A stretch of 51,233 nt of DNA from Bacteroidales bacterium (GTDB lineage Bacteria > Bacteroidota > Bacteroidia > Bacteroidales > UBA7960). Made by a program: the position numbers and the translations under genes. Shown piece by piece: positions 15,660 to 23,095 of the stretch. Every line of letters begins with the position of its first letter. Position 1 is the first letter of the stretch. The notes under the pieces are model-generated. The model did not search any database, was not told where the DNA came from, and saw only the letters and a program-made list of their open reading frames with translations. Where the stretch lies: NCBI GenBank assembly GCA_007134525.1, contig SLKR01000113.1, positions 1-51,233 on the forward strand, in the 5' to 3' direction.

Positions 15660-16118
15660 CTATTTTCTTCTTTCACTGAAGAACTCCTTTAAGAGGCGTG
15701 AAGATTCCGCGGACATCACTCCTTTTGTAACCCTGGTCTTTGGGTGAAGCAGTTTCCTGCCAACCAGGCTGTAACCCCTTTTCTCATCACCGGCTGCGTA
15801 AACCAATCTCCCGGCCTGTGACCAGAAAAGCGCCCCGGCACACATAACGCAAGGCTCAAGGCTGACATACAGGGTACACTGATCAAGGTATTTTCCGCCA
15901 AGGTAATTTGCAGCAGCTGTAATTGCCTGCATTTCAGCGTGAGCGGTAACATCTCCAAGGGTCTCGGTTAGATTGTGTGCCCTTGCAACAATATTGCCAC
16001 TGCATACCACAACAGCACCAACAGGTACCTCCCCGGCATCATAAGCCTTAAAGGCCTCCCTGATGGCCTCCTTCATATACTTTTCGTCTGTACTCCCGGT
16101 ATCCTCTCTCATATCCAT
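15660..16118 (-). CDS. tadA: tRNA-specific adenosine deaminase (TadA-like)
   Basis: A zinc cytidine/adenosine-deaminase-fold enzyme, 152 aa, the expected length for TadA, which converts A34 to inosine in the tRNA-Arg(ACG) wobble position. The catalytic site is clear: HAEM (His60, proton-shuttling Glu62) and PCVMC (Cys90, Cys93). GEVPVGAVVV and the C-terminal KGVMSAESSRLLKEFF are TadA-like. The start at 16118 overlaps the end of crtB by 10 bp; Met3 (16112) and Met15 (16076) are alternatives, and only the last would remove the overlap. So tadA seems to ride on the carotenoid transcript. A guanine- or other nucleoside-deaminase role cannot be excluded. Confidence 0.88.
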   Translation of the reverse strand: MDMREDTGSTDEKYMKEAIREAFKAYDAGEVPVGAVVVCSGNIVARAHNLTETLGDVTAHAEMQAITAAANYLGGKYLDQCTLYVSLEPCVMCAGALFWSQAGRLVYAAGDEKRGYSLVGRKLLHPKTRVTKGVMSAESSRLLKEFFSERRK

Positions 16119-16942
16119 CCTAACTTATTCCTCAGATAACATTTTACCAGCAGCAGCAGCTTGTGATGGTTTGATACCCTGAACCGCATTGTTTTTATAT
16201 TCTCCGGGTTCTCCCTCTCTATCTTCCTGAGCAACTCAAGATAATACCTGTATGCAAGGTAAACGCCAAGCCTGACTTTCCTGTCAAGAGATCTTATTCC
16301 GGGCAGTGCATCCCTGAAGTCAGCCCATATCTCTTTTTCAATGAACTGCTTGTCGCAGGCTGAGAATGTATCAATTGAAACATCCGGAAAATATACTCTC
16401 CCCCGTTCGCTGTGATCAGATCTTATGTCCCGCAGAAAATTTACTTTTTGAAAGGCCTCCCCCAACTTGCGGGCGGCAGGCAGCAACTGTCTGAACTCAT
16501 TATCCCGCCCCGAATAGAATACCTTCAGGCACATCAGACCGACCACTTCGGCCGAACCGTATATGTATCTCTTGTACTCTTCCTGAGAAAACTCCCTGTG
16601 ATCCAGGTCCATTTTCATGCTGTAAAAAAAGGCCTCTATGTGATCACTTTGAATACCATAACTGTTAACGGCCCACTGAAAAGCATGCAATATGGGGTTG
16701 GTGCTGAACCCCTCATCTATGGCCTTATATGTATTGTGCCTGAAGTCCTCCAGAAGCTTCTCCTTGTCCTGGTCATGGAAAGTATCGACTATTTCATCGG
16801 CGAACCGGACAAATCCGTAAATCGAATATATGGCCGGCCTCAACTTTTTGTCAATGGTTCTCACGCCCAGAGAAAAGGAAGTACTGTAGTTCCGGGTTGT
16901 GATCTCACTGCATTCAAGTGCATTACGTGTGTATAGGTCCAT
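16109..16942 (-). CDS. crtB: Phytoene/squalene synthase family protein (phytoene synthase)
   Basis: Condenses two geranylgeranyl diphosphates into phytoene, the first committed step of C40 carotenoid synthesis. It has 277 aa from the ATG at 16942 (MDLYTRNALECS); the codon at 16954 is TTG and is not needed. Family motifs are visible: TRNYSTSFSLGVR, the first Asp-rich motif FADEIVDTF, YIYGSAEVVGLMCLKVF, and the second Asp-rich motif VNFLRDIRSDHSERGRVYFP. The start overlaps the crtI stop by 20 bp, and the end overlaps tadA, so the order crtI-crtB-tadA is a single tight operon. No geranylgeranyl-diphosphate synthase is present in the window. Confidence 0.92.
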   Translation of the reverse strand: MDLYTRNALECSEITTRNYSTSFSLGVRTIDKKLRPAIYSIYGFVRFADEIVDTFHDQDKEKLLEDFRHNTYKAIDEGFSTNPILHAFQWAVNSYGIQSDHIEAFFYSMKMDLDHREFSQEEYKRYIYGSAEVVGLMCLKVFYSGRDNEFRQLLPAARKLGEAFQKVNFLRDIRSDHSERGRVYFPDVSIDTFSACDKQFIEKEIWADFRDALPGIRSLDRKVRLGVYLAYRYYLELLRKIERENPENIKTMRFRVSNHHKLLLLVKCYLRNKLGWI

Positions 16943-18410
16943 GATCTGAAACAATTCTTTCCGTTACCAGCTTCGAGCTTATAACGGCCATCGGCAGCCC
17001 TGTCCCCGGTACGGTTGAAGCACCGACGTAATATACATTATTAAACAGCTCATCAAAATTCTTGGGTCTGAATCCCCCTATCTGCCCGAGGTTATGCCCA
17101 AGACCAAGCCCGCTTCCTTTGTAAAGGTCAAAACTATCCTTCCACTCAATGGGGGTCATAATTGTTTTTGACAGGATGTGTTTCTCAAGGTCTATCCCGA
17201 TTCGACCCGAAAGATCAGCAATAATACCTCCGGCGACCTCTTCACGGTCGTTCCAGTCGGGTTTGAAACGAAGATCAGGAACAGGACAAAGAATAAATAC
17301 GCTCTCACAGCCTTCGGGTGCACTTGACGGGTCAGACTTCGACACCACGTTTACATAATAGTAAGGTTGGTCAAGCTTTATTGCATTCCGGAATATCTTA
17401 CCGGAATAATCCCTGAAGTTGTTCCCTAGAAAATAGTTGTGCAGCGGAACATTCTCCAGCTTTCTGCCGAGCCCAAGGTAAATGGTAAACGGAGCAAGCG
17501 TCCATTTAAGCCTGTCGAGTTTGTTTTCCGAGAACTTTTTCCTGCCGAACACCTTGTTCCTGAACCATGCTGCATCTGCATTTACCACGAAAAGATCCGC
17601 CTCCCACTCCCTTCCACTCTGGTCTGTAAATGACACTAGCCTTCCTTTGTCACTTTTAAAACCGGTGATCTCGGTATTAAAGTGCATCTCAACCCCCTTT
17701 TTTTCAAGTTCGCTCTTCAGCCCCTCCACTATCCTGTACATACCTCCCTCAACATTATGGTAACCATCATGCACCAGCTCGGTATAAGACAGGATGGTAT
17801 AAATAGCAGGGGTATCAAACGGGGTAGCCCCCAAAAAGAAGGCGACAAGGGAGAAGATCTCCCTTACCTCACGCGATTCAAAATGCCTCTCCATCTCTGA
17901 CCATACCGATCTCCAGAGCCTGGGGGCATATCTGGGCGGAACCCTCAGCAGTGTCAGCAGATAGCCAATAATCGAGTTGTAGTTCTTTTTGAGAACAAGG
18001 CCTTCTACATCATGGAAAAATTTTCCTGCACCTGACAAAAAGCCATCCATCTTTCTTCGAAAATCACTCTCAACCCCTTCAAATTCAAAAGCAAGCTTGT
18101 CAAGATCCTTATATATTAGAAAGTTCCTGTCAGACCCCCTGAAATTAACAGAATAGAGAATGTCAAGTTCGCGGAAAGAGAAAGGAAGCTTCTCCAGGCC
18201 CACATCCTTTCTGAACTCCTCAAACTCATAAGTCATACTGAAAAAGGTGGGTCCCATGTCGAATGTGAAACCATCCTTTTTTATCTGGTTTAGGCGACCG
18301 CCCGGTTGATGGTATTTTTCAACCATCTGTACTGAATATCCCCGGCTTGCAAGCCTCATAGCTGTAGTCATTGCACCGAGGCCGGTGCCCACTATCAATG
18401 CCTTTTGCAT
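16923..18410 (-). CDS. crtI: Phytoene desaturase
   Basis: An FAD enzyme of 495 aa that desaturates phytoene stepwise toward lycopene. The N-terminal nucleotide-binding motif is VGTGLGAMTTAMRLASRGY, followed by EKYHQPGGRLNQI and FTFDMGPTFFSM, all typical of CrtI. The C-terminal FAD motif is YYVGASTVPGTGLPMAVISSKL. It is the first gene of the minus-strand crtI-crtB-tadA operon. Its start codon is 47 bp from that of divergent crtD, so both promoters must lie in or around 18411-18457. No full Bacteroidota promoter could be matched there; the plus-strand TATCTTGC at 18449-18456 is a partial -7 match only. Confidence 0.9.
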   Translation of the reverse strand: MQKALIVGTGLGAMTTAMRLASRGYSVQMVEKYHQPGGRLNQIKKDGFTFDMGPTFFSMTYEFEEFRKDVGLEKLPFSFRELDILYSVNFRGSDRNFLIYKDLDKLAFEFEGVESDFRRKMDGFLSGAGKFFHDVEGLVLKKNYNSIIGYLLTLLRVPPRYAPRLWRSVWSEMERHFESREVREIFSLVAFFLGATPFDTPAIYTILSYTELVHDGYHNVEGGMYRIVEGLKSELEKKGVEMHFNTEITGFKSDKGRLVSFTDQSGREWEADLFVVNADAAWFRNKVFGRKKFSENKLDRLKWTLAPFTIYLGLGRKLENVPLHNYFLGNNFRDYSGKIFRNAIKLDQPYYYVNVVSKSDPSSAPEGCESVFILCPVPDLRFKPDWNDREEVAGGIIADLSGRIGIDLEKHILSKTIMTPIEWKDSFDLYKGSGLGLGHNLGQIGGFRPKNFDELFNNVYYVGASTVPGTGLPMAVISSKLVTERIVSDHGPIHT

Positions 18411-18457
18411 TTATCTGTTTTTGTAAGATTGTGTGAAAATAATGAATATCTTGCAGT

Positions 18458-19930
18458 ATGGAACAAAAATGTGCCGTCATTGGTTCAGGGGTAGCAGGTA
18501 TTGCATCTGCAATAAGGCTTAAGGAAAAGGGATATGATGTTGATGTTTTTGAAAAGGAGAAAGGCCCCGGCGGCAAAATATCGCAGCTTTCATGCGGGGG
18601 CTTCAGGTTCGATACCGGACCGTCTCTGTTTACAATGCCCGCCCTCGTAACGGAGTTGTTCACCCTGGCAGGCAGGGATGCGGAAAAAAGCTTCTCTTAC
18701 CGGGCCCTGGACAAAAGCTGCAGGTACTTCTGGGAAGATGGCACAGATATTACTGCCTGGCAGGACAAAAAAAGGTTTGCCGGAGAGGTCAGTGAAAAAA
18801 CTGCAAGCCCGGAGGAAAGGATAAGTGCATTCCTTGACAAGAGCAGAAGGCTGTATGATCTTACAAAGGATGTATTCCTGTTCAACTCACTGCATAAAAA
18901 GTCAAATTACCTGAGCGCCCCCTACCTGCGCACACTGCTGCACATTCATGAGCTGGATGCTTTCACCACCATGCACAGAAGAAACAGCAAATGGTTTGAC
19001 AGCGGGAAAATTGTTCAGATGTTCGACCGCTATGCAACATATAATGGCTCAAACCCATACCGCACTCCGGCAACCCTGAATATAATTCCCCATCTGGAAC
19101 ACAATATGGGAGTGTTTTTCCCCGAGAGGGGCATGTATCAGATAGTCAGCTCGCTTTATAGGCTGGCATTGGATATGGGTGTGCGCTTTCATTTCAGTTC
19201 TTCAGCCGAAAGGATAATCATTGAAGGTAAAAAAGCAGCAGCGCTAAGGGTAAATGGTGTAAATGAAAGTTTTGACATTATCGTAAGCGACATCGACATA
19301 GTAAACCTGTACGGGGAGCTTTTGCCGGGCACCAGGATCCCCGGCAGGCAACTGTCGATGGAGAGGTCAAGTTCGGCTATGATATTCTACTGGGGTGTAA
19401 AGGGAGATTACCCCTTACTTGAACTGCACAACATCCTGTTTTCAACAGATTATCGCAATGAGTTCGATATGCTCTTCAGAAAAAAGCTGATCAGCGAAGA
19501 CCCCACAGTATATGTCTTTATCAGTTCTAAAGAGGTAAAGGGTGACGCACCTGCAGGAGCAGAAAACTGGTATGTAATGGTCAATGCACCAGAAGATACA
19601 GGCCAGGACTGGGAAGCTATAAGGGCTGAATGCCGCCGGAACATATTGTCAAAGATTAAAAGGGTATTGGGGAAGGATATTGAGAAAAGCATTATTTCAG
19701 AGAACTATATGGGACCGCAGGAGATTGGGAAAAAGACGGGATCATTCAGGGGTTCGCTCTATGGACCCAGTTCAAACAGCAGGTTCTCGGCATTTTACCG
19801 CCACCCGAATTTCTCTGGATCAATAAAAAATCTTTACTTTACAGGCGGAAGTGTCCATCCCGGGGGAGGGATACCGCTTTGCCTGGCATCGGCAAAGATT
19901 ATCGACAAGGAGATTCCACGGATAAACTAG
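18458..19930 (+). CDS. crtD: Carotenoid 3,4-desaturase (CrtD-like), CrtI family
   Basis: A second CrtI-family FAD oxidoreductase, 490 aa. Motifs: VIGSGVAGIASAIRLKEKGY, FEKEKGPGGKISQL, FRFDTGPSLFTMPALV at the N-terminus and YFTGGSVHPGGGIPLCLASAK at the C-terminus. It is closer in pattern to 1-hydroxy-carotenoid 3,4-desaturases of Bacteroidota than to the crtI product next door, and it sits directly upstream of a CruF-type hydratase, the enzyme that makes the 1-hydroxy substrate. The proposed reaction is desaturation of the C3-C4 bond of a 1-hydroxylated psi end. Exact substrate order is inferred from context. First of a plus-strand string with 2-8 bp gaps. Confidence 0.78.
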   Translation: MEQKCAVIGSGVAGIASAIRLKEKGYDVDVFEKEKGPGGKISQLSCGGFRFDTGPSLFTMPALVTELFTLAGRDAEKSFSYRALDKSCRYFWEDGTDITAWQDKKRFAGEVSEKTASPEERISAFLDKSRRLYDLTKDVFLFNSLHKKSNYLSAPYLRTLLHIHELDAFTTMHRRNSKWFDSGKIVQMFDRYATYNGSNPYRTPATLNIIPHLEHNMGVFFPERGMYQIVSSLYRLALDMGVRFHFSSSAERIIIEGKKAAALRVNGVNESFDIIVSDIDIVNLYGELLPGTRIPGRQLSMERSSSAMIFYWGVKGDYPLLELHNILFSTDYRNEFDMLFRKKLISEDPTVYVFISSKEVKGDAPAGAENWYVMVNAPEDTGQDWEAIRAECRRNILSKIKRVLGKDIEKSIISENYMGPQEIGKKTGSFRGSLYGPSSNSRFSAFYRHPNFSGSIKNLYFTGGSVHPGGGIPLCLASAKIIDKEIPRIN

Positions 19931-19937
19931 TGCATAT

Positions 19938-20591
19938 ATGAGATTTCTCCAGACCCGCAGGGCAGAAAAGATCACAGCTTACCTTCTGATTATATATTAT
20001 ACCGTGGGGCTTGCAGGCCTGAGCCTTCCGTCAGCACGGGAGAGATTCACAGAGCTGATGCCCCTTACACTGATAATTAGCACTCTGATCCTGCTGTTTT
20101 TTCACCGCAAGTGGAAAAGATACGATGCCCCGGTATTGATCATAATAGCTGCAGGGGGCTTTCTGGTGGAAGCTGTCGGAGTGCTTTCCGGAAATATCTT
20201 CGGTGCATACTGGTACGGGGAGACCCTGGGTGTAAAGCTCTTCGATACTCCGCTTATAATTGGTGTAAACTGGATGATGCTTACCTACTGTACATACTCA
20301 ATTATGGAAAATACCAGGCTGTTCTGGCCACTTAAGGCAATTGCTGCAGCAATACTTATGCTTTCATACGACCTGGTACTGGAGCCCGTTGCAATACGAA
20401 CCGGTATGTGGTACTGGGAAAGCGGCAGTGTGCCTCTGCAGAATTACCAGGCATGGTTCATTATATCACTTATTTTCCTTACACTTATGCACATTGCAGG
20501 GGTTAGAACGGGTAACAGGATTGCACCATGGATCTTCGGTGTGCAGTTTGTTTTTCTTATTTGTCTGAACATAACCCTCCGACTGTTTTAA
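19938..20591 (+). CDS. cruF: Carotenoid biosynthesis protein, CruF-like 1,2-hydratase
   Basis: An integral membrane protein of 217 aa with about six or seven helices, of the PF04240 (DUF422) type that includes CruF, the gamma-carotene 1',2'-hydratase, and bisanhydrobacterioruberin hydratase. Visible blocks: AGGFLVEAVGVLSGNIFGAYWYG, WMMLTYCTYSIMENTRLFWP, SYDLVLEPVAIRTGMWYWESG and LQNYQAWFIISLIFL, where the Asp-Glu-Pro and tryptophan pattern is conserved in the family. It adds water to the terminal 1,2-double bond of an acyclic end, giving the tertiary hydroxyl that later enzymes glycosylate. It sits 7 bp after crtD and 2 bp before the acyltransferase gene. Identification by motif and context. 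Confidence 0.8.
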   Translation: MRFLQTRRAEKITAYLLIIYYTVGLAGLSLPSARERFTELMPLTLIISTLILLFFHRKWKRYDAPVLIIIAAGGFLVEAVGVLSGNIFGAYWYGETLGVKLFDTPLIIGVNWMMLTYCTYSIMENTRLFWPLKAIAAAILMLSYDLVLEPVAIRTGMWYWESGSVPLQNYQAWFIISLIFLTLMHIAGVRTGNRIAPWIFGVQFVFLICLNITLRLF

Positions 20592-20593
20592 CT

Positions 20594-21229
20594 ATGATAA
20601 TAAAGGACCGTCACAACAGATTATTCCTGTTTTTCTTTCAAAGTTTGTTCTGGGTATTATCCCGCTTCCATTTCAGGAAGGTCAACATTGTAAACGAGCT
20701 TAACCTGGGAAAGGGACCTGTTCTGCTGATAGCAAACCATTTCAGCTGGTGGGACGGTTTTTTTGCGCAGAAGGTGAACAGGAAAATACTAAAACGCAGG
20801 TTTCATGTAATGATGCTGGAAGAAGAGCTGAAAAAGAGGCGCTTTCTAAGCAAAACGGGGGCCTTCTCAATAAGGAAAGGCCACCGCAATGCACTCGAGT
20901 CAATTGAATATGCAGCCGGGATAATGAACCGGGACGAGAACATGCTTCTGCTTTTCCCCCAGGGAAGGTTCCAGTCGACACACCGTTACCCTTTAAGGTT
21001 CTATAATGGCTGGGGCAGGATACTTGAACAGACAAACAACACTCCCCAGGTAATATTCATGGCGTGCCTGTCAGATTATTTTGAAAACCGCAAGCCAACA
21101 GTAAACATTTATCTTGAAAAAGCATTTAAGCTGAATGGGGAAAGCAAAAAAACACCCGATGCTGCAAAGATAGAAGATGAATATAATGAATTCCTCAAGA
21201 GAGCCATTGACCTTCAGGATAAAAGATAA
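20594..21229 (+). CDS. Lysophospholipid-type acyltransferase, possible carotenoid-glycoside acyltransferase (CruD-like)
   Basis: A PlsC/LPLAT-superfamily acyltransferase, 211 aa. The start at 20594 (MIIKDRHNRLF) avoids overlap with cruF; the catalytic NHFSWWDGFF (HX4D) is near residue 42, and LLLFPQGRFQST matches the phosphate-binding block (FPEGT-like). There is one N-terminal hydrophobic stretch. By motif alone it could acylate lysophospholipids. Its place between a carotenoid hydratase and a glycosyltransferase matches the CruC/CruD pair of green sulfur bacteria that glycosylate and acylate the 1'-hydroxyl of carotenoids, so transfer of a fatty acyl chain to the sugar is the favoured role. 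Confidence 0.75.
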   Translation: MIIKDRHNRLFLFFFQSLFWVLSRFHFRKVNIVNELNLGKGPVLLIANHFSWWDGFFAQKVNRKILKRRFHVMMLEEELKKRRFLSKTGAFSIRKGHRNALESIEYAAGIMNRDENMLLLFPQGRFQSTHRYPLRFYNGWGRILEQTNNTPQVIFMACLSDYFENRKPTVNIYLEKAFKLNGESKKTPDAAKIEDEYNEFLKRAIDLQDKR

Positions 21230-21236
21230 GTAACAA

Positions 21237-22331
21237 ATGCCCTACATTGCAGCTGCAATACTGATATTCACTGCCATGCGATTCATGGTGGCTGCGGCAA
21301 ACCTTCTCCAGCGACAGTGGCTGAAGGCGGGCAGAGCATTTTATAATGAAAGGGTCTCAATACTGATACCGGCCAGAAATGAAGAAAATAATATAGGTAT
21401 GCTGCTTGAAGGCATAATCGGCCAGGAGTATAAAAACTGGGAGGCTATTGTATATGATGACCTGTCGTCTGACAAAACTGCGGAGATAGTAACCGGGTAC
21501 CAGAAAACTGACTACCGCATAAAGCTTGTACGCGGCAGCAAACTGCCGGAAGGCTGGGCCGGGAAGAACCATGCCTGTCACAACCTTGCAATGCAGGCCA
21601 CTGGTGATGTCCTGCTTTTTATTGATGCTGATGTAATTGCCGGTAAAACAATGCTGACTGATTCGCATTCCCACCTTAGAAATAACAGGCTGCATCTTTT
21701 GTCAGTTTTTCCGACTCAGGTGATGAAATCAGCGGGAGAGAAGTTAAGTGTGCCAATAATGAACTGGATACTGGTCAGTTTACTGCCGCTGAAAATGACA
21801 TTTAGCTCGTCCTATCCTTCGCTTTCGGCAGCCAACGGCCAGTTTATGATGTTTGATGCAAAAACATACAGGGCAAATCTGTTTCACAGCACCTTCAAAG
21901 ACAGTGTGGCCGAAGACATTGAAATTGCAAGGCAGATGAAGAGGCAGAAACTCAAAATACACACACTGCTCGATGGAGGGCAGGTGAGCTGCCGGATGTA
22001 TTCATCACTTCAGGAGGCCTTAAATGGATTTTCGCGTAATATCACGGCATATTTTGGTGGCAGCACAATGCTTACCTTTGCGTTTATGCTTGCCACCAGC
22101 TTTGGCGCAGTTCCGGTATATCTGGCCCTCGGCCCGTTATGGCTGGCTGTTTACCTGGCTGCGGCATTGCTTATCAGGGGGATGGTTTCAGTATCAGGCA
22201 GACAGGATGTAGCCTTTAACATACTGGCCTCTCCGGTTCAGCAATTTGTTCTGATAGTTCTAACAATCAGGGCAATTTTAAACAAGATATCAGGAAGGAT
22301 AACATGGAAGGGAAGAGTAATAAAATACTGA
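21237..22331 (+). CDS. GT2 glycosyltransferase, possible carotenoid glycosyltransferase (CruC-like)
   Basis: A membrane-associated family 2 glycosyltransferase of 364 aa. It opens with a hydrophobic segment, then VSILIPARNEENNIGMLLEG, WEAIVYDDLSSDKTAEIV, and the DXD-like LLFIDADVI. A later DSVAEDIEIARQMKRQ block holds the acceptor-site ED, and two or three C-terminal helices follow (LTFAFMLATSFGAVPVYLALG). It sits 8 bp after the acyltransferase and is overlapped by the next gene by 28 bp. By comparison with CruC it would add a hexose to the C1' hydroxyl made by CruF. The sugar and acceptor are not provable from sequence. Confidence 0.78.
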   Translation: MPYIAAAILIFTAMRFMVAAANLLQRQWLKAGRAFYNERVSILIPARNEENNIGMLLEGIIGQEYKNWEAIVYDDLSSDKTAEIVTGYQKTDYRIKLVRGSKLPEGWAGKNHACHNLAMQATGDVLLFIDADVIAGKTMLTDSHSHLRNNRLHLLSVFPTQVMKSAGEKLSVPIMNWILVSLLPLKMTFSSSYPSLSAANGQFMMFDAKTYRANLFHSTFKDSVAEDIEIARQMKRQKLKIHTLLDGGQVSCRMYSSLQEALNGFSRNITAYFGGSTMLTFAFMLATSFGAVPVYLALGPLWLAVYLAAALLIRGMVSVSGRQDVAFNILASPVQQFVLIVLTIRAILNKISGRITWKGRVIKY

Positions 22332-23095
22332 TTATAAAGCCTATGCTTTTGATATTGATTCTGTTTACACAGATATCAATAACCGTTGCCTCATCAAATC
22401 AGGCATCTGTACAGAAAAATTTTCAGGATCTGCTGTACAGGGCATATGTCGAAAACCGGATGCATCTCTGGGAAAGCACACTACAGGCAATGGAACAGGA
22501 ATACAGGATTAACCCCGGCAGTGAGCTGCTGTACGATGTAGTGCTGGCACAATACGGCCTGGCTGGCTATTATCTTGGGATAGAAGAAACATCAAAAGCA
22601 TCGGCACTTTTAAAAAGAAGCGATTCCTACATTAAGGAGCTGGAAATCACCCGGGGCTACGAGGCAGAGGCAAAACTTTTCAGGGCGGCTTACTACGCTT
22701 ACCGAATCGCAATTAATCCTTTGAGAAGCATACAGTTTGGCCGGGCGAGCGGCAGGCTAATTGACGAAGCCCTGGATATGCAGACTTCATATCCAAGGGG
22801 TTTTACTGAAAAGGGTAATATGCTTTTCTACGCACCCTCCATGCTGGGTGGTTCCAAAACAGGATCAATAGAATACTATAAAAAAGCCGTGGAGATGTTC
22901 GAAAAAGACCTGCAAAACAACCACAGGTGGTTATATCTGAGCACTCTGGTATTTCTTGCAAACGCCTACAGTCAAACCGGTAACGCTGCCGATGCGTTCA
23001 AAACCCTTGAAAAAGCACTTGATTACGAACCGGGCTTCCTGTGGATAAAAGAGGAGCTGCTGCCGGATCTGCAAAAAAGGGCAGACACACGGTAA
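22304..23095 (+). CDS. Exported TPR-repeat protein of unknown function
   Basis: A 263-aa protein with a signal-like N-terminus (KILIIKPMLLILILFTQI) and helical, TPR-like repeats: residues about 55-120 (LAQYGLAGYYLGIEETSKAS) and about 190-260 (YYKKAVEMFEKDLQNNH, TLVFLANAYSQTGNAADAFK). The start at 22304 follows a good ribosome binding site (AGGAAGGATAAC) and overlaps the glycosyltransferase end by 28 bp, which implies translational coupling. A later Met (22343) is an alternative. No enzymatic motif is seen. It lies inside the carotenoid/S9 peptidase string; a scaffold or assembly role is possible but unproven. Confidence 0.6.
   Translation: MEGKSNKILIIKPMLLILILFTQISITVASSNQASVQKNFQDLLYRAYVENRMHLWESTLQAMEQEYRINPGSELLYDVVLAQYGLAGYYLGIEETSKASALLKRSDSYIKELEITRGYEAEAKLFRAAYYAYRIAINPLRSIQFGRASGRLIDEALDMQTSYPRGFTEKGNMLFYAPSMLGGSKTGSIEYYKKAVEMFEKDLQNNHRWLYLSTLVFLANAYSQTGNAADAFKTLEKALDYEPGFLWIKEELLPDLQKRADTR

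Follow-up and report, generated by a model that had tools for sequence, protein, structure and literature searches.

A Bacteroidales carotenoid locus that, with a detached cyclase-ketolase pair, probably encodes a monocyclic glycoside ester pathway and carries a conserved HusA-related gene

We analyzed a 51,233-nucleotide stretch of DNA from a Bacteroidales bacterium of the UBA7960 lineage (contig SLKR01000113.1, assembly GCA_007134525.1), hereafter called the window, which carries a carotenoid locus. Together with a crtW-crtYcd gene pair located elsewhere in the genome, on contig C121, this locus is likely to encode the synthesis of a monocyclic carotenoid glycoside ester of the salinixanthin type. 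The pathway is of a known kind, with an unrecognized gene in one of its operons. The source genome is a 2.69-Mb draft of 156 contigs, 96% complete, in which the window is contig C123.

Carotenoid genes inside and outside the window

A sequence-only reading of the window had described crtI-crtB divergent from crtD, cruF, an acyltransferase gene and a glycosyltransferase family 2 (GT2) gene at 16109-22331, and all six genes were found in these positions (Table 1). At the family level, a phytoene synthase and a phytoene desaturase are present: CrtB scored 167 bits with PF00494 and CrtI 323 bits with TIGR02734, both above cut-off. The hydratase and the 3',4'-desaturase are represented by CruF and CrtD, with 584.8 bits for CrtD with NF042421 (cut-off 500) and 84.6 bits for CruF with PF04240, above the Pfam cut-off and below those of the archaeal NCBIfam CruF models. 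The acyltransferase exceeded the PF01553 cut-off and contains its HX4D motif as NHFSWWD, while the GT2 exceeded that of PF00535 and has DAD and ED residues that are invariant among 26 aligned members. Family alignment makes the ATG 2 nt past the cruF stop the more likely acyltransferase start, and for crtB the ATG is likewise more likely than the listed TTG. The short gap between crtI and crtD is presumed to be a regulatory region shared by both operons. The right-hand operon continues beyond 22331 into a fifth conserved gene that the earlier reading had overlooked.

Table 1. Genes of the carotenoid locus and of the detached pair (window coordinates unless a contig is named)
Feature	Position	Strand	Remarks
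crtB, phytoene synthase	16109..16942	-	277 aa from ATG 16942; listed TTG start 16954
crtI, phytoene desaturase	16923..18410	-	495 aa; TIGR02734
crtI/crtD divergent gap, 47 bp	18411..18457		between the two gene starts
crtD, 1-hydroxycarotenoid 3,4-desaturase	18458..19930	+	490 aa; NF042421
cruF, carotenoid 1',2'-hydratase	19938..20591	+	217 aa; PF04240
CruD-like acyltransferase	20594..21229	+	211 aa from ATG 20594; listed start of the open reading frame 20528; PF01553, family alignment, tree
CruC-like GT2 glycosyltransferase	21237..22331	+	364 aa; PF00535, alignment, tree
HusA-related protein like tetratricopeptide repeat (TPR) proteins, probably exported	22304..23095	+	263 aa; overlaps GT2 end by 28 nt
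CrtYcd-type lycopene cyclase, two-domain	C121 3207-3911	divergent from ketolase	PF18916, TIGR03462
CrtW-like ketolase	C121 3128-2433	divergent from crtYcd	NF045690, His motifs

Searches of the whole genome placed no match to CrtYcd, CrtY, FA_desaturase, FA_hydroxylase or prenyl synthase models inside the window, which bears out the earlier statement that it holds no cyclase, ketolase, hydroxylase or geranylgeranyl diphosphate (GGPP) synthase. The conclusion drawn from it, an acyclic product made without a cyclase, is contradicted by the rest of the genome, where the gene of a cyclase lies together with that of a CrtW-like, putative ketolase on C121. CrtYcd scored 121 bits with PF18916 and 91.9 bits with TIGR03462, both above cut-off, and has two PVE motifs; these cut-offs identify it as a lycopene cyclase, for which closure of one end is predicted. 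The CrtW-like protein scored 227 bits with NF045690 (cut-off 350) and contains the histidine motifs HDAMH, HKLHH and HREHH. Prenyl synthases, absent from the window, are represented elsewhere by two polyprenyl synthases (contigs C80 and C13), the former with short-chain and GGPP synthases as top models, below their cut-offs. No PF04116 match, and hence no flexixanthin-type 3-hydroxylase (CrtZ), was found in this 96% complete genome. A CrtY-type cyclase was rejected, since PF05834 matched only a member of the geranylgeranyl-reductase family, above cut-off for GGR_cat and TIGR02032. Contig C46 encodes a protein similar to digeranylgeranylglycerophospholipid reductase (L002 589-1995; 388 bits, cut-off 580) that is above cut-off for the geranylgeranyl-reductase family.

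The cyclase and ketolase genes were adjacent in all four genomes of the genus examined. In the genus mates G032, G146 and G241 the pair also lies on a contig other than that of the main locus (L128-L130). Seven relatives (L057, L068, L069, L097, L098, L116 and L118) have crtW between cruF and the acyltransferase gene and crtYcd beside crtB. Because the pair is detached in the genus genomes examined and inside the locus in these relatives, it has probably moved out of the operon. On C121 it adjoins what appears by eye to be a V/A-type ATPase operon (L093 3985-11595).

The pathway would start with GGPP from one of the two prenyl synthases, which CrtB would convert to phytoene, CrtI to lycopene and CrtYcd to gamma-carotene. 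CruF would then hydrate the open end at C-1', CrtD would introduce the 3',4' double bond, and the 4-keto group on the ring would come from CrtW. Finally, the CruC-like GT2 would attach a sugar to the 1'-OH and the CruD-like enzyme would acylate this sugar; the reactions, like the nature of the sugar and the acyl chain, are predicted from gene content. The expected product is a 4-keto-1'-hydroxytorulene 1'-O-(acyl)glycoside, the skeleton of salinixanthin without its 2'-hydroxyl group, and the non-keto form would be expected if ketolation fails. Salinixanthin itself is a 3',4'-didehydro compound glycosylated at the 1'-O position. Molecules of the predicted type are already known from Rhodothermus marinus, for which excerpts of one report list salinixanthin with and without 2'-OH and a form without the 4-keto group (PMC5822342). 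The fragments described there lie at m/z 341/359 for the acyl glucoside and at 203 for the 4-keto ring, and the acyl mass would shift with chain length. In relatives whose locus lacks crtD and crtW, an ester of 1'-hydroxy-gamma-carotene glycoside would be the simplest forecast, provided that these genes are not encoded elsewhere. We rejected a C30, staphyloxanthin-like pathway: CrtB alone is compatible with it, but CrtD above its cut-off, CrtYcd and the CrtW-like protein argue for C40.

Placement and conservation of the GT2 and the acyltransferase

The GT2 and ACYLTRANSFERASE were placed by profile searches over genomes and by trees. The GT2 profile was run over 355 genomes of the phylum with matches counted at E<=1e-15, and green sulfur bacteria were recognized by their FMO protein (86 genomes). 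Comparing the two tables by reading, we found a GT2 match in 84 of these 86, mostly a single one of about 250–300 bits. A few FMO-bearing families had three to five matches each. Weaker matches occurred in G530 and G564 (about 1e-44) and G591 (1.8e-16), while G544 and G634 were not among the matches at this threshold. In one FMO-bearing genome (L260) three open reading frames separate the GT2 gene from that of bacteriochlorophyll c synthase, which presumably agrees with the position of cruC in Chlorobaculum tepidum. The acyltransferase profile was run over 76 genomes picked from the GT2 match table. It matched in 22 of 23 non-green-sulfur genomes with a strong GT2 match, 17 of 18 FMO-bearing and 16 of 19 with a medium match, and in none of the 15 having only weak GT2 matches. 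In the source genome it gave a single match at E<=1e-6; other acyltransferases there therefore do not answer the profile.

In a maximum-likelihood tree of 44 rows the GT2 fell on the side of the CruC-like GT2 from green sulfur bacteria with an FMO gene, and three paralogues of unassigned role were split off by a long branch with 100/100 support. For the acyltransferase, a tree of 35 rows set apart, at 97/95, PlsC of E. coli and two PlsC-like open reading frames that had been picked by weak similarity to it (E 2.8e-8 and 4.4e-5). The Bacteroidales rows and the sphingobacterial/cytophagal rows each needed two label changes in the GT2 tree and were intermixed in the acyltransferase tree. We claim from the trees the separation from the paralogues and from PlsC, and not the inner branching. 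Both trees support the proposal of a carotenoid glycoside ester made by CruC/CruD-type enzymes. Of two outcomes that would have spoken against it, a grouping of the acyltransferase with PlsC was not seen with this small outgroup, and a grouping of the GT2 with cell-wall enzymes was answered in part: it stands apart from the three paralogues, in a tree that contains no cell-wall GT2 of known function. Taken together, these comparisons place the GT2 in the CruC family and the acyltransferase in a CruD family distinct from PlsC.

To survey the locus in the order, we searched 71 CruF loci of 70 other genomes with profiles made from the window's proteins and related sequences. Of these loci 64 were assessable, because the fetched piece extended 3.2 kb or more past CruF. 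In 50 of these 64 loci cruF was followed on the same strand by an acyltransferase gene and a GT2 gene. Because it recurs so often, the arrangement is not due to chance. The genes occur in two operon layouts, crtD-cruF-(crtW)-acyltransferase-GT2-TPR and crtB-(crtYcd)-cruF-acyltransferase-GT2-TPR-crtI. We also collected GT2 loci from named genomes, using the best 80 of 562 confirmed relatives, a choice that favors close relatives. The closest among these 80 were Bacteroidales metagenome-assembled genomes (MAGs), several labeled CSSed or B1Sed, labels that probably refer to the hypersaline soda-lake sediments described in the excerpted text of PMC6146748. Two of them, L141 and L135, are identical in DNA to the loci found in the genus mates G146 and G241. 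The two sets overlap: nine pairs, compared for the likeness of their contigs, are the same DNA. Cultured carriers of the locus include Draconibacterium sediminis (L154), Gaoshiqia sediminis (L200) and Aquimarina latercula (L161), of which L200 alone shows crtW in its fetched piece. Three records titled Patescibacteria, Fibrobacter and Ignavibacteriales (L202, L203 and L204) contain the same locus, by mis-binning or transfer. In the window, the last 10 bp of crtB are shared with a tadA-like deaminase gene (15660-16118), and tadA also lies near crtB in L054 and L134.

Known pathways and alternative readings

The predicted pathway shares with salinixanthin synthesis in R. marinus and Salinibacter ruber a monocyclic 4-keto acyl-glucosyl carotenoid made with CrtB, CrtI, a cyclase, a ketolase (putative here), CruC and CruD, there according to excerpts of PMC5822342 and here predicted from genes. 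According to the same excerpts, R. marinus has CrtY and CrtO, no CruF/CrtC homologue, no unequivocal CrtD and a cruC far from the cluster, whereas here we find CrtYcd, a CrtW-like ketolase, CruF and CrtD, adjacent cruF, acyltransferase and GT2 genes, and the added fifth gene. The core set corresponds to that for flexixanthin in Algoriphagus, reported as crtE, B, I, cruF, D, Ycd, W and Z (PMC10784355, in part), minus crtZ; the GT2 and the acyltransferase are additional here, and no CrtZ-type hydroxylase was found. Green sulfur bacteria use the same two enzyme families for the same product class, with C. tepidum making OH-gamma-carotene glucoside laurate via CrtC, CruC and CruD (PMC6166724, in part). 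In C. tepidum the hydratase is CrtC and not CruF, and in six single-contig FMO-bearing genomes (G299, G346, G357, G369, G400 and G467) the GT2 and acyltransferase genes are far apart. In Thermomicrobium roseum cruC adjoins a CruF-acyltransferase fusion, with separate genes in our locus, and an acyclic product of the oscillol type was proposed (PMC2615216, in part).

Several points weigh against the monocyclic glycoside ester pathway as we read it. The assembly is only a draft, and the cyclase and ketolase genes are unlinked to the window. CrtW, the GT2 and the prenyl synthases fall below NCBIfam equivalog cut-offs; CrtB does not reach those of CrtB models either, and its top NCBIfam match is HpnD, below cut-off. 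For the GT2 the top NCBIfam models are HpnB (below cut-off) and CruG, and no CruC model matched. The inner branching of both trees is only partly resolved; their rows include no characterized, named CruC or CruD, the green sulfur rows being recognized by the FMO gene. In addition, CrtW requires oxygen, and two genus mates are MAGs labeled CSSed, which we take to mean soda-lake sediment; the keto step may therefore often be idle.

Among other products, an acyclic one, in which a 1-hydroxylated, 3,4-desaturated lycopene derivative bears the acyl sugar, would fit the window with its missing cyclase and the lack of a CrtY-type enzyme in the genome. We consider it improbable, as CrtYcd exceeds both Pfam and NCBIfam cut-offs, its gene accompanies crtW throughout the genus genomes examined, and it lies within the locus in several relatives. 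Slightly less improbable, but still unlikely, is that CrtYcd closes both ends, so that a share or most of the pigment would be beta-carotene or canthaxanthin with the CruF branch minor. A cyclase and a ketolase together can indeed yield canthaxanthin. Against such a flow stand the continued neighborhood of CruF, CrtD, the GT2 and the acyltransferase, and the monocyclic flexixanthin that Algoriphagus makes with the same core set (PMC10784355, in part).

The acyltransferase and GT2 could also serve a cell-envelope lipid or polysaccharide and be mere neighbors of the carotenoid genes, as their top NCBIfam models, AGP_acyltrn and HpnB (both below cut-off), might suggest. The linkage to cruF, the co-occurrence across genomes and both trees make this improbable. 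A hopanoid role of the GT2 is likewise disfavored: crtB is the only SQS_PSY match in the genome, and therefore no squalene synthase of this family was found that could feed hopanoids. Finally, the carotenoid might be the antenna of a xanthorhodopsin-type rhodopsin, since the xanthorhodopsin of Salinibacter includes salinixanthin (PMC5822342, in part), a pairing that we rejected for this genome and to which we give hardly any credence. No rhodopsin exceeded the Pfam cut-off in this genome or in three genus mates, and a weak match in the former overlaps a 74-aa open reading frame unlike a rhodopsin. A membrane-protective or antioxidant role is therefore more likely than an antenna role. In the order, rhodopsins above cut-off occurred in only 2 of 295 genomes, G051 (L049) and G031 (L050), both of which carry crtW, crtYcd, cruF, acyltransferase, GT2 and TPR genes in one locus (L057 and L084). 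The best PDB chains were labeled xanthorhodopsin (8jh0) and sodium-pumping rhodopsin for L049, and proteorhodopsins for L050.

The HusA-related fifth gene

The fifth gene, hereafter the TPR gene, was present downstream on the same strand in 41 of the 50 CruF-acyltransferase-GT2 loci; in L121 it is adjacent on the opposite strand. Counted from GT2, in loci with at least 900 bp downstream of it, it occurred in 42 of 51 loci of the order survey and, on the same strand, in 73 of 76 loci of the named-genome set drawn from the best 80 of 562 relatives, two figures that are not independent since the sets share DNA. Its overlap with the GT2 gene is most often 25 or 28 nt. The loci that contain it span about 32 family labels by our tally; it follows GT2 in both operon layouts and also in Aquimarina (L159-L161). 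It was not seen in presumed sphingobacterial/cytophagal acyltransferase-GT2-CruF loci, for which short flanks were fetched (e.g. L214-L220), nor in two Mucilaginibacter loci (L192 and L209) and one Pedobacter locus (L197). Of the 14 loci without the acyltransferase-GT2 pair, three have the gene: L076, with GT2 and without acyltransferase, and L062 (8392-9141) and L077 (6667-7527), where CruF is followed by the TPR gene alone and the piece contains no acyltransferase, GT2 or other crt genes. The genome with L062 (G093) has a second CruF locus (L113) with acyltransferase and GT2 genes and no TPR gene there. The TPR gene also occurs in the carotenoid locus of COT-184, an isolate of the Porphyromonadaceae (L151 9065-9790), which may bear on the origin of HusA. 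In our literature search, whose coverage leaves out most subscription journals, none of the papers listed described a carotenoid cluster with a TPR or HusA-like gene.

The encoded protein is probably exported, as judged from a hydrophobic N-terminus in all 32 aligned members and no later stretch of membrane-span strength. The AlphaFold2 model is all-helical, with 12 helices and a mean pLDDT (predicted local distance difference test) of 92.2. Its top PDB match by Foldseek was HusA of Porphyromonas gingivalis (6bqs; E 4.7e-5, TM 0.58/0.73), of which VIA-align superimposed 192 residues at 2.4 A (Z 19.3). Further VIA-align matches include TatT-type proteins (8g52 and 4di3) as well as a sterol transporter from bacteria (7t1s, Z 16.4). 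HusA was also first in a sequence search with the window protein alone (E 6e-6). The whole-length family profile (A3) matched it at E 2.2e-8. When the C-terminal repeat was left out of the profile (A4), HusA ranked first among natural chains, at 3e-8. With this trimmed profile it scored 37 bits in a single stretch, versus at most 17.9 for each printed stretch of the top designed chain. The L062 member matched HusA at E 0.0064, and that of L106 gave no HusA match at E 0.01. By these sequence comparisons the fifth-gene protein is homologous to HusA (6bqs, 6crl), with which it has in common the fold and a YxPxxxGGxK stretch. In contrast to HusA, which binds porphyrins, it has a longer chain with a C-terminal TPR and is encoded among carotenoid genes.

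Porphyrins bind to HusA in a hydrophobic groove, and homologues of HusA were reported from Bacteroidetes only, free-living species included, in the excerpted parts of PMC6173696. Using the residue letters given there, we located the groove positions on the printed alignment. P126 and Y164 of HusA correspond to P139 and Y176 of the window protein, Q160 to N172 (invariant in the family) and L122 to I135; M116, L123 and W130 correspond to A129, A136 and I143, and F80 falls outside the alignment. The groove thus appears partly kept and partly changed, which would allow a different ligand but does not prove one.

Tentatively, the fifth protein may bind or carry the acyl-glycosyl carotenoid outside the inner membrane; a helical protein of the HusA kind could hold such an amphipathic pigment there. 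This pigment-handling role is the most specific idea on hand, and a shared fold does not show function. Alternatively, the gene could encode a TPR scaffold of the usual sort or be a bystander unconnected with pigment, a reading to which we give somewhat less than an even chance. TPR folds are common, and the Thermus TPR protein 2pl2 (Z 18.8) ties with HusA within 1 Z. In both profile searches, designed consensus TPR chains score above HusA once their repeats are summed, and the untrimmed profile ranks natural chains such as O-GlcNAc transferase and SPINDLY above it. Groove residue L157 of HusA is a glutamate (E169) in the window protein, and 9 of the 50 loci have no TPR gene downstream on the same strand. 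However, a bystander would hardly be expected after GT2 so regularly in two layouts or beside CruF alone in L062 and L077, and the HusA sequence match lies outside the canonical repeat.

From genome data, these results outline how Bacteroidales could make a salinixanthin-type pigment, with a detached cyclase-ketolase pair that must be sought outside the operon. They also bring to light an operon protein, widespread and apparently unstudied, that has a pigment-binding haemophore as its relative. This TPR protein is a candidate for the step by which large carotenoid molecules leave the inner membrane. Possibly, though with no great confidence, it is a dedicated periplasmic or outer-membrane carotenoid carrier that belongs to this operon both in Bacteroidales and in some of the Flavobacteriaceae. 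In that case, HusA would represent one branch of an old family of pigment carriers, a branch whose target changed from carotenoid to porphyrin.

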